Below, one piece after another: positions 45,849 through 50,846 of a stretch of DNA of 64,000 nucleotides. Both the position numbers and the translations under genes were made by a program. How positions within the stretch are numbered: the stretch's first letter is position 1; every line of letters begins with the position of its first letter. The notes beneath the pieces are model-generated. The model was not told the DNA's origin. It saw nothing but the letters and a program-made list of their open reading frames with translations, and did no database searches. This DNA is from Pseudomonadota bacterium (GTDB lineage: Bacteria > Pseudomonadota > Gammaproteobacteria > Burkholderiales > Gallionellaceae): positions 124,001-188,000 of the forward strand of contig JAJZUP010000003.1 of NCBI GenBank assembly GCA_021848465.1. Reading direction: 5' to 3'.

Positions 45849-46946
45849 TCAAGCATTCCCGATCCCGCGTGTCGGCACATTGATCTGTCGTGCAAAGTCC
45901 AGCATGCGTTTGATCGGCTGCACCGCACGCGGAATGATGGCCGGGTCGACCAGAATTTCGTTGCTGCCCTGTTCCAGCACGTCGGCCAGATTCTGCAAAC
46001 CGTTCATCGCCATCCACGGACAATGACTGCAACTGGTGCAGTTTGCGCCATGCCCCGCGGTGGGCGCTTCGAGGAAAACCTTGTCCGGACACAGCGTGCG
46101 CATCTTGTGCAGGATGCCGTTGTCGGTGGCGACGATGAACTCCTTGTTTGGAGCACTCTGCGCGGCCTTGATGAGCTGCGTGGTGGAACCGACCACGTCG
46201 GCCTGCTGCACCACAGCGCGCGGCGACTCGGGATGCACCAGCACCAGCGCGCCGGGATGCTGCGCCTTGAGCTCCTGCAATTCAGTCGCCTTGTATTCGT
46301 CGTGCACAATGCACGAGCCCTGCCACAGCAGCATGTCGGCGCCGGTCTGTTCCTGCACGTAGCTGCCGAGATGGCGGTCGGGAGCCCACAGGATTTTCTT
46401 GCCCTGTTCGTGAAGGTGCTTCACCACCGGCAGCGCGATAGAGCTGGTCACCATCCAGTCGGCGCGAGCCTTCACGGCGGCACTGGTGTTGGCATACACC
46501 ACCACGGTGCGGTCGGGGTGTGCATCGCAAAAGGCGGCGAATTCATCCGCCGGGCAACCCAGGTCAAGCGAACATTCCGCATCCAGGTCTGGCATCAGCA
46601 CGCGCTTTTCCGGATTGAGTATCTTGGCGGTCTCGCCCATGAAACGCACGCCCGCCACGACAATGGTCGTGGCCGGATGCTGGTGGCCGTAGTTGGCCAT
46701 GTCGAGCGAGTCGGAAACAATGCCGCCAGTCTGCTCGGCCAGATCCTGCAGGTCGGGATGCACGTAGTAATGCGCCAGCAATACCGCATCCTGCTCTTTC
46801 AGCATGCGCTTGATGCGCGCGACCAGCTCCGCTTTTTCTTCCGGCTCCGGCTCTCGCGGCTTCTTCGCCCAGGCATGCGCCGTGCTGCACACGTTGTGCA
46901 CCGCATCGGGATGTTCGTAGGCAATCGAAATTTTCAAATCGGGCAT
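45849..46946 (-). CDS. nadA: quinolinate synthase A
   Basis: It condenses iminoaspartate with dihydroxyacetone phosphate to quinolinate for NAD synthesis, using a [4Fe-4S] cluster. The 365 residues keep the expected cluster cysteines Cys125 (AECSLDLG), Cys212 (GSCIVHDE) and Cys309 ([11 protein letters not shown]), plus [12 protein letters not shown]. The ATG at 46946 is 2 bp after nudB. It ends a long aspS-side operon; aspartate is the substrate precursor shared with aspS. Confidence 0.97.
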
Positions 46947-46948
46947 CT

Positions 46949-47386
46949 TCAGTTTCGTTCCGGTAATTGCAGGATCGCCGCGCGATTGCTGGGCGAAAAC
47001 ACCTTCACTGCCGCCTCTTGCCAGGGGAGCCACACATAGCTGACGTGCTCGCGCGGCGCAAGTTTGACCGCAACGCGCTGCGGCAGTTTCAGGCCAAACA
47101 CATGCTCGGTATTGTGCGTAGTGCCGGGCGGATAGCGATGCACCCACTTCGCATAGATGTCATACACATTCTGCTGCTGCCAGTCCGTCAGCGCATACTG
47201 TGTCGCATCGATGCCGGTTTCCTCCGCCACTTCGCGGATCGCTGTTTCGCGCAGGCTCTCCGCGCCATCGCGGCTGCCGGTTACCGATTGCCAGGCGTCC
47301 GGATAGTCTGCGCGCTCCAATAGCAGCACATCAAGCGCTGCGGTGTAAATCACGACCAGGGCGGATATCGGCTGCTTATACTGCAT
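46949..47386 (-). CDS. nudB: dihydroneopterin triphosphate diphosphatase
   Basis: A Nudix hydrolase that removes pyrophosphate from dihydroneopterin triphosphate in folate synthesis. The 145 residues contain a Nudix box, [14 protein letters not shown], with the preceding Gly-containing [10 protein letters not shown]. The ATG at 47386 overlaps the barstar-like gene by 11 bp; longer frames lack support. Its gene order next to aspS is usual. Confidence 0.93.
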
Positions 47387-47786
47387 CGGCCAGGAAGACC
47401 CAGAACGGTTTGTGCTGCGACTTCCAGTATTCCGCCGCTTCACTGAATATTTCCCGCACCGCAGCATACTCGCTTTCGGATAGCCCCAGCCGCTCGCCGC
47501 CGCCCTGCAGGAGCAACACATATCCCGAAGCTTCGGGCTCAAGCCAGGACAAGTCGCACAAGGCATCGCTCAGTGCATCCAGGTTATGACCGAACCAGTC
47601 CGGCGCCTGGATCACCTTCGCAATCGCAGCCAGGAACTCCCCCTTGTTGTGCCGCCCCGCCAAATCCACGTCAAACATCTGCAGGCCGGAAAGTGCGACA
47701 TTTCCAAACAGTATCTCGACCGGGCAATTCAATTCGAAAACCCCGGCTTCATCGACATCCTGCAAGCGCTCACACAAGTCACTCAT
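47376..47786 (-). CDS. barstar-like ribonuclease inhibitor
   Basis: The 136-residue acidic protein shows the barstar core, with the helix PDWFGHNLDALSDALCDL and a preceding GLQMFDVDLAGRHNKGEFL. Barstar proteins bind and block guanyl-specific ribonucleases in the cytoplasm. It lies 3 bp after a gene for exactly such a secreted ribonuclease, so it is the likely immunity partner. It has no signal peptide, as expected. It overlaps nudB by 11 bp. Confidence 0.9.
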   Translation of the reverse strand: MSDLCERLQDVDEAGVFELNCPVEILFGNVALSGLQMFDVDLAGRHNKGEFLAAIAKVIQAPDWFGHNLDALSDALCDLSWLEPEASGYVLLLQGGGERLGLSESEYAAVREIFSEAAEYWKSQHKPFWVFLADAV

Positions 47787-47789
47787 GGC

Positions 47790-48161
47790 TCACTCCTGGA
47801 TACGTCGGAAAGATTGATAATGATCGTCCGAATAGTAGCACTCAGACACCATGCCGCACACAATGCGCCGGGCACCGCGATTGCGCACGCCCGGGGTCTT
47901 CACGGTGTATTCATGATAGTAACCGCGCGGATGATACGGCAGCTGGCGCTCGCGATTGCTGAACACCACGCCGTCGCGCGGATAAGGAAACGGGCCGCCC
48001 TGCCTGATCAACTGCAAGGTCTCGCGCGCTTCGCGCGGCAGTTCGGCTACCCGGACTTCGATCTGTGGCGCGGCATCCGCAAACCAGCCTGCCTGCGCTC
48101 CGGGATGCCAGCACAGCAGCCCGGCCAGAACCAGCCACAGCGTCCAGGCGCCGCGCAACAT
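47790..48161 (-). CDS. secreted RNase Sa/barnase-type guanyl ribonuclease
   Basis: The 123 residues have a signal peptide (about 1-24, ending AQA) and a domain very like RNase Sa of Streptomyces: PFPYPRDGVVFSNRER, GYYHEYTVKTPG and DDHYQSF. The catalytic set maps onto Glu84, Arg95, Arg99 and His114. It would cleave RNA after guanosine once exported to the periplasm or outside. It sits 2 bp after aspS and 3 bp before the barstar-like inhibitor gene. Confidence 0.9.
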   Translation of the reverse strand: MLRGAWTLWLVLAGLLCWHPGAQAGWFADAAPQIEVRVAELPREARETLQLIRQGGPFPYPRDGVVFSNRERQLPYHPRGYYHEYTVKTPGVRNRGARRIVCGMVSECYYSDDHYQSFRRIQE

Positions 48162-48163
48162 GC

Positions 48164-49963
48164 CTACTCCTTGCTAACCTCAACCGTGGTCTGCACCTGC
48201 TGGCGCAAACGGATATGCAGTTCGCGCAGTTGCTTCTCGTCCACGGCGGATGGCGCTTGCGTCAACAGGCATTGCGCGCGCTGGGTCTTGGGGAAGGCGA
48301 TCACGTCGCGGATGGATTCGGCGCCGGTCATCATGGTGACGATGCGGTCCAGGCCGAAGGCCAGGCCGCCGTGCGGTGGCGCGCCGTATTGCAGCGCGTC
48401 GAGCAGGAAGCCGAACTTGAGTTGAGCTTCTTCCGCGCCGATGTTGAGCGCGCGGAACACTTTGCTCTGCACTTCTTCCTTGTGGATACGCACCGAGCCG
48501 CCGCCGATTTCCCAGCCGTTCAGCGCCAGGTCATAGGCCTTGGCCAGGCACTTGCCGGGGTCGCTTTCGAGGAACTGCACATGCTCGTCCTTGGGCGAAG
48601 TAAAGGGGTGGTGGCAGGCCGTCCAGCGCTTGTCTTCCTCGTCGTATTCGAACATCGGAAAGTCCACCACCCACAGCGGCTCCCATGCCTTGCCATTGGT
48701 GTAACCCTTCTCGTGGCCGATCTTGGTACGCAATGCACCCAGCGCGTCATTGACCACCTTGGTCTTGTCGGCGCCGAAGAAGATCAGGTCGCCGTTCTGC
48801 GCACCAGTGCGCTCCATGATGAGCTTGAGTGCAGCCTCGTTGAGGTTCTTCACAATCGGCGATTGCAGCCCCTCTTCGTTCAGCTTGGTCATGTCGTTGA
48901 CCTTGATGTAGGCCAGTCCCTTGGCACCGTAGATACCGACGAACTTGGTGTATTCGTCGATTTCGCCGCGTGTCAGAGCCGCACCGCCGGGGATGCGTAG
49001 CGCACCCACGCGGCCGCCGCTGTTGGCCGGACCGCTGAACACCTTGAACGCCACATCCTTCACCGCATCGGTGACTTCGGAAATTTCCAGCGTTACACGC
49101 ATATCGGGTTTGTCGGAACCGAAACGCGACATGGCCTCGCCGTAAGTCATGCGCGGGAAGGGATTGGGCAAAGTCACGTCCAGCACCTCCTTGAACACGG
49201 TGCGGATCATTTCTTCCATCAGCGCCATGATCTGCTCCTCGCTGAGGAACGAGGTTTCAATATCCACCTGGGTGAACTCGGGCTGGCGGTCGGCACGCAA
49301 ATCCTCGTCGCGGAAACACTTGGTGATCTGGTAGTAGCGGTCGAAACCGGCCACCATCAGCATCTGCTTGAACAATTGCGGCGACTGCGGCAACGCGAAG
49401 AATTCTCCGGCATGCACGCGCGACGGCACCAAATAGTCGCGCGCGCCCTCGGGAGTGGATTTGGTCAGCATCGGCGTCTCGATGTCGATAAAGCCTTTGT
49501 CGTCGAGGAAGCGGCGGAAGGCGCGCGCGGTCTTGTAGCGCAGCATCATGTTCTGCTGCATCTGCGGTCGGCGCAGGTCGATCACGCGATGGGTCAGGCG
49601 CACGTTCTCAGACAGGTTTTCGTCGTCGAGCTGGAACGGTGGCGTGACCGAGGCATTCAGCACTTCGATCTCGTGACACAGGATCTCAACCTCGCCGCTG
49701 GTGATGTTGGCATTGGTGGTGCCTGCCGGACGGCGACGCACCTTGCCGGTGATCTTCAGCACGAATTCATTGCGCACCGATTCGGCGATCTTGAACATAT
49801 CCGGGCGATCCGGATCGCACACCACCTGCGCCAGGCCTTCGCGGTCGCGCAGGTCGATGAAGATCACCCCGCCGTGGTCGCGGCGGCGATGAGCCCAGCC
49901 GCACAGGGTAACGATTTGATCCAGGTTGGAAGCATTCAGGCTGCCGCAGTAATGAGTACGCAT
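48164..49963 (-). CDS. aspS: aspartyl-tRNA synthetase
   Basis: The 599-residue class II enzyme charges tRNA-Asp, and in many betaproteobacteria also tRNA-Asn. It shows the N-terminal OB fold ([20 protein letters not shown]), motif 2 ([18 protein letters not shown]), the bacterial insertion domain and motif 3 ([15 protein letters not shown]). It is followed by the ribonuclease gene after 2 bp. Confidence 0.98.
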
Positions 49964-50007: not shown

Positions 50008-50604
50008 TTAACCTTGGCTCTCGAGCTTGCGCGCCACCTCTTCGGGCGTGGTCACCACCCCCATCGAGACAATCGCCTTGAAAGCCACATCGACCTTGAT
50101 ATCCAGCTCTATCGTATCGGCCTTGCGCACAAAGAAATAAAAGCCGTTCACCGGGCTGGGAGTCGTCGGGATGAAGACCGCGACATATTCATCATCGCCC
50201 AGCTCGCGCTGCACCTCGCCGGGAACCGTCGTCTGGAATGCCAGCGACCATGCCTGAGGATGCGGGTAACGCACCAGCAATACCTTGCCGAAACCGTTGC
50301 TCTTTTCCGATAGCAGCGTATCGCTGACCTGCTTGACGCTGTTGTATATGCCATTGACCACCGGAATGCGCTGCAACAACGCCTCCCACATGTCGAGCAA
50401 GCGCTGCCCGAACATATTGCGCGTCAACAGCCCGGTAACCAGCACAATCGCCGCGGTCAGCACTACCCCCATACCGGGAACGCGCCAATCCTGGGGCAAC
50501 AGCAACAATGATTGATCCATCGTGCCCAGAATCAGCTTCAGCACCCACAGCGTGATGGCCAGCGGCACCCAGACCAGCAGTCCGGTAAACAGGTATTTCT
50601 TCAT
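50008..50604 (-). CDS. DUF502 membrane protein
   Basis: The 198 residues have two N-terminal transmembrane helices (about 3-22 and 45-65) and a conserved soluble part: RIPVVNGIYNSVKQVSDTLL, a family hallmark, and FIPTTPSPVNGFYFFV. The function is unknown. The fmdB-DUF502-aspS order is typical of betaproteobacteria. The ATG at 50604 overlaps the fmdB stop (ATGA). Confidence 0.9.
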   Translation of the reverse strand: MKKYLFTGLLVWVPLAITLWVLKLILGTMDQSLLLLPQDWRVPGMGVVLTAAIVLVTGLLTRNMFGQRLLDMWEALLQRIPVVNGIYNSVKQVSDTLLSEKSNGFGKVLLVRYPHPQAWSLAFQTTVPGEVQRELGDDEYVAVFIPTTPSPVNGFYFFVRKADTIELDIKVDVAFKAIVSMGVVTTPEEVARKLESQG

Positions 50605-50846
50605 GCCTCGCCGCTCATGGCCGGACAGGATGCACAAGCGGACGGCTCACACTTCGGCGCGGGCGGATTTTTGAAATCCGTCACATAGTAGCCGCTCCCC
50701 TTCAACTGGAAACCGGCTGCAGTGAGCTGTTTGCTGAAAGTTTCCTGTTTGCATTCCGGGCATGTCGTCAGCACAGGATCGCTGAATTTCTGCATGACAT
50801 CCTTCTGTGTGCCGCAGTTGCTGCAGCGGTATTCGTATATGGGCAT
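50601..50846 (-). CDS. FmdB-family zinc-ribbon protein
   Basis: The 81-residue protein opens MPIYEYRCSNCG and has a second CPEC pair, making a zinc ribbon, then a GSGYYVTDFKNPP segment and a Cys-rich tail. It is a putative regulatory protein of unknown target. A GGAGG-type site lies upstream, and it leads the aspS-nadA operon. The 148 bp before it hold no other gene. Confidence 0.9.
   Translation of the reverse strand: MPIYEYRCSNCGTQKDVMQKFSDPVLTTCPECKQETFSKQLTAAGFQLKGSGYYVTDFKNPPAPKCEPSACASCPAMSGEA

Follow-up and report, generated by a model that had tools for sequence, protein, structure and literature searches.

A conserved RNase Sa-like nuclease and barstar-family inhibitor in the aspS gene run of Gallionellaceae

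Why would a predicted secreted ribonuclease and a barstar-like protein be encoded between aspS and nudB in a member of the Gallionellaceae, a family of iron- and nitrite-oxidizing bacteria? RNase–inhibitor pairs of this type are known mainly from Bacillus and Streptomyces, and in the barnase–barstar arrangement the RNase is exported and a cytosolic inhibitor guards against self-damage before export. A preliminary description of the stretch of DNA analyzed here (64,000 nucleotides, hereafter the window) had drawn attention to such a pair. Our analysis indicates that the pair is real, was correctly described and is ordinary in kind, and that its conservation pattern is interesting: in Gallionellaceae it is a core module, apparently kept by vertical descent, and it is common across Burkholderiales.

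The two genes belong to a run on the minus strand, which begins with a gene for an FmdB-type zinc-ribbon protein (50601..50846; PF09723, E 1.9e-16) and a DUF502 gene (50008..50637; PF04367, E 8.6e-34), followed by aspS, encoding aspartate–tRNA ligase (48164..49963; NF001750, E 5e-273). Directly downstream are the RNase gene (47790..48161; 123 aa) and the barstar gene (47376..47786; 136 aa), then nudB, encoding dihydroneopterin triphosphate diphosphatase (46949..47386; NF006961, E 1.4e-63), and nadA, encoding quinolinate synthase (45849..46946; PF02445, E 5e-108), the last gene of the tight run. Computed gaps along this order are -37, 44, 2, 3, -11, and 2 bp: the last base of aspS is 48164 and the RNase starts with an ATG at 48161, the RNase stop codon runs to 47790 and barstar starts with an ATG at 47786, and barstar and nudB overlap by 11 bp. 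Recomputation thus returned exactly the coordinates and the 2-bp and 3-bp gaps given in the preliminary description, and gaps and gene matches agree with its placement of the pair in an aspS–nudB–nadA run of a Gram-negative. The DUF502 gene is a conserved neighbor, also found upstream of aspS in relatives, and its true start is probably an internal ATG at MKKYLF; the fmdB and DUF502 coordinates, LpoB data, and multiple barstar matches in relatives involve overlapping frames or a stale profile and are kept out of our claims. Candidate promoters and terminators that might divide the run were no commoner than in shuffled sequence, with one weak stem within barstar. We infer that the RNase and barstar genes are co-transcribed with the aspS run.

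The RNase belongs to the RNase Sa (N1/T1, barnase superfamily) type. It matches the Pfam Ribonuclease profile PF00545 far beyond chance (E 4.1e-24, profile positions 12–98 of 98), scoring 85.4 bits against a curated cut-off of 24, with a conserved core at approximately residues 35–123. In sequence it most resembles Streptomyces RNase Sa3 (1mgr, E 2.6e-30). An AlphaFold model matches RNase Sa, Sa2, and Sa3 in the PDB (Foldseek E 4e-11) and superposes on RNase Sa2 (1pyl) with an rmsd of 1.3 Å, placing the protein in the RNase Sa fold. The four catalytic residues named in the preliminary description (E84, R95, R99, and H114) align to E54, R65, R69, and H85 of RNase Sa, and the base-binding N39 and E41 (Sa numbering) are present too; all six positions are near-invariant in an alignment of 158 RNases. 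The window protein is therefore probably a guanyl-specific RNase, sharing with Streptomyces RNases Sa, Sa2, and Sa3 the fold, the catalytic and guanine-binding residues, and predicted export. It differs from that group in its Gram-negative host, in lacking the C7–C96 disulfide positions, and in having a Cys pair within RIVCGMVSEC, of a kind present in 71 of 157 relatives. No second copy was found in the source genome. Some relatives (L076, L079, and L080, also G232, G236, and G301) showed a loop insertion in the RNase domain; in three of these RNases the insert contains Cys and precedes the GGEFYYT motif, and others show a split profile match.

Residues 1–24 of the RNase (48090..48161, minus strand; MLRGAWTLWLVLAGLLCWHPGAQA) form a likely Sec signal peptide, with a probable cut after AQA. 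A hydrophobic N-terminal stretch fitting an export signal is found in 147 of 150 distinct orthologs, such signals being recognized by hydrophobicity and lipobox pattern, with the cleavage site inferred from sequence. Lipoprotein-type signals occur in two Gallionella loci (L020 and L042), in L063 and L064, and in 14 Kribbella and Streptomyces relatives; among betaproteobacterial RNase copies a few carry a lipobox.

The second protein matches the Barstar profile PF01337 far beyond chance (E 3.1e-24, profile positions 3–95 of 96), scoring 85.2 bits against a curated cut-off of 23.4. Since its sequence is only weakly similar to solved barstars (best E 0.095), a role as inhibitor rests on profile, fold, motif, and the decay patterns described below. 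Its AlphaFold model (pLDDT 94) has barstar chains as best PDB matches (E 1e-4, TM-score by target length 0.72–0.76). The RNase-binding aspartates D35 and D39 of barstar are present as D70 and D74, invariant and nearly invariant, respectively, among 46 sequences; in a wider alignment of 155 barstars, 153 have D35 and 154 have D or E at position 39. The window protein has no signal peptide, and no strongly hydrophobic N-terminus was found among 124 orthologs, so a cytoplasmic location is predicted. Together these features suggest that the barstar binds and inhibits its cognate RNase, and Pfam, fold, motif, and N-terminal signal agree with the preliminary description of a putative exported RNase Sa-like nuclease with a barstar-like inhibitor. 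The pair shares with Bacillus barnase–barstar and with other simple pairs the order of a secreted RNase followed by an intracellular barstar with the DxxxD inhibitor motif. It differs in that the RNase belongs to the Sa branch rather than the barnase branch, the barstar has ~36 extra N-terminal residues, and the genes sit in the aspS run. In Ferriphaselus sp. R-1 (L017 and L180), a single open frame of 250 aa joins barstar to NudB; in the window they lie in different frames that overlap by 11 bp.

Is the pair a recent arrival in this run? The nearest named records are all from Gallionellaceae (Gallionella, Sideroxydans, Ferriphaselus, and Nitrotoga). Among 100 genomes of the family that were at least 90 percent complete, 96 encode the RNase, nearly always in single copy, and barstar was found in 34 of 35 sampled genomes. 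The RNase is thus a core gene of Gallionellaceae and not a single-genome oddity. Most named loci of the family read aspS–RNase–barstar–nudB–nadA. In an order-wide sample, 81 of 200 genomes carried the RNase in 82 copies, 80 of which were followed immediately by a barstar gene of the same strand. Linkage to aspS, counted where a genome had an aspS position listed, was found for 26 of 66 copies, so that at least 26 copies in the sample, from seven families, have aspS directly upstream. Many further families of the order have the pair, frequently beside aspS, and many pair-bearing genomes have no aspS linkage. These counts do not support two views of the preliminary description, that the pair had been inserted into a housekeeping operon and that it was unusual in a Gram-negative: the gene order is common to the family and to other families, and recent insertion is rejected.

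The two genes also occur in actinobacteria. Kribbella and Streptomyces pairs (L136, L139, L170, and L181) consist, as in the window, of an RNase gene followed by barstar, with 55–72 percent RNase identity, but differ in their lipoprotein signal and in lacking an aspS neighbor. In a quick tree of the concatenated pair, the 63 rows from the family, named and unnamed, formed one clade (support 99), and the actinobacterial rows fell in a separate clade (support 88). Given this tree, the shared gene order, and conservation across family and order, we conclude that the module is old in the Gallionellaceae lineage and mostly vertically inherited.

The literature agrees that the kind is not new. Zhang et al. 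(2012) list beta-proteobacteria among holders of barnase-type RNases and barstar and describe simple barnase–barstar pairs as widely distributed without notable polymorphism (PMC3482391), so RNase–barstar pairs of this sort were already known. A long-known type that is present in nearly every family member is better regarded as ordinary than as a newly inserted weapon. In the limited library searched, we found no description of core-gene status in Gallionellaceae or of aspS linkage, and nothing on barstar in Burkholderia or Gallionella, or with YhcO.

Gene losses provide natural tests of the inhibitor role. One Gallionellaceae genome (G251) lacks both genes, and between its aspS and nudB lies only a short stretch that contains a repeat; a nearly identical repeat flanks nudB on both sides at this locus (L204/L209), which suggests that a repetitive element took the place of the pair. 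In another (G282; L203 and L205), both genes persist as broken remnants between aspS and nudB, a joint loss. In a genome of another family (G167), the RNase is lost and the barstar, 5 bp behind aspS, has neither D35 nor D39; two further genomes without the RNase (G165 and G090) have barstars without D39. Seven of 10 RNase-less barstars retain the aspartates. Motif loss was thus found in 3 of 10 barstars without an RNase versus 1 of 154 paired ones (Fisher p 0.0006, with rows that are not independent, G165 and G090 being from one family). In the order-wide sample, two RNase copies had no adjacent barstar. One of these (L064), the second RNase of genome G149, carries E54A and H85Y and a lipoprotein-type signal and is probably a dead paralogue, and the other (L088) belongs to the barnase-like branch. 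Short barstars in other families that appeared to be orphans proved to adjoin a barnase-like RNase not listed by the Pfam search. In these patterns, loss of the RNase often goes with a barstar that is absent, degraded, or without its RNase-binding aspartates, which supports an inhibitor role. The several losses offer ready comparisons for following how an inhibitor decays once its nuclease is gone.

Protein identities, catalytic and inhibitor motifs, the export signal, gene order, conservation, and joint decay are all established at the level of sequence comparison. From them we consider it likely that the pair is a mostly vertically inherited module of an exported envelope RNase and a cytosolic safety barstar, both within the aspS run. 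The RNase Sa-type enzyme would be made with a signal peptide and exported to the periplasm, where in some relatives it is probably anchored as a lipoprotein. It would cleave RNA after guanosine, either within the envelope or in the immediate surroundings of the cell. Barstar would remain in the cytoplasm and block RNase molecules that fold prior to export or are not exported at all. Bacillus licheniformis balifase, too, shares an operon with its inhibitor, and phosphate starvation induces it (PMC5021464). The RNase may degrade RNA of the environment or the envelope as a source of nucleotides and phosphate, which is the most economical reading of its role. Nutrient functions of this kind are usually starvation-regulated, whereas the RNase gene sits in a housekeeping run with no sign of starvation control. 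If the RNase does act in the envelope, this would point to a housekeeping function of guanyl RNases in Gram-negatives that has gone unstudied.

The same location and anchoring would also suit a barrier role, in which the RNase acts constitutively in the periplasm against foreign RNA, such as that of RNA phages or RNA entering from the environment, the barstar is a safeguard and expression is tied to aspS, with no part in nutrition. Retention of the RNase in nearly all Gallionellaceae genomes fits such a barrier, but a PADLOC search for defense-system membership gave no match and the pair is not among defense genes; we regard this explanation as unlikely. Slightly less probable is the toxin and immunity function assigned in the preliminary description, in which released RNase kills neighboring cells and barstar shields kin. 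Barnase-type RNases do serve as polymorphic-toxin warheads with barstar immunity (PMC3482391), and the order here is toxin, then immunity gene. However, the target would be cytoplasmic RNA and an entry route is therefore needed, yet the run has neither a delivery domain nor secretion-system genes. Polymorphic toxins and CDI systems have a large delivery protein with a C-terminal toxin, variable tips, and a patchy distribution; this RNase is a stand-alone 123-aa protein with its own signal, is found in 96 of 100 family genomes, and falls in one clade. Export signals, lipoprotein anchors in several orthologs, vertical inheritance as a single-copy core gene, and the missing delivery domain lead us to favor an envelope RNA-degrading enzyme over a weapon. 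Of the toxin–immunity claim, inhibition is supported by joint decay and antagonism is not. A cytoplasmic switch resembling a toxin–antitoxin system, linked to the expression of aspS or to failed export, in which loss of barstar frees unexported RNase, would fit the tight 2–3 bp spacing and the cytosolic inhibitor. It is very improbable, given the retention of the export signal in nearly all orthologs and the many pair-bearing genomes without aspS linkage.

Origin of the pair from a mobile element or phage was also considered and set aside, as phage records gave no match. Sixteen plasmid records did match, and at least half of these are very large replicons. Enterobacteriaceae plasmids of 137–166 kb (NZ_AP019818.1, NZ_AP014939.1, and similar) encode an RNase Sa-like protein with 47.6 percent identity at a position with no listed feature.
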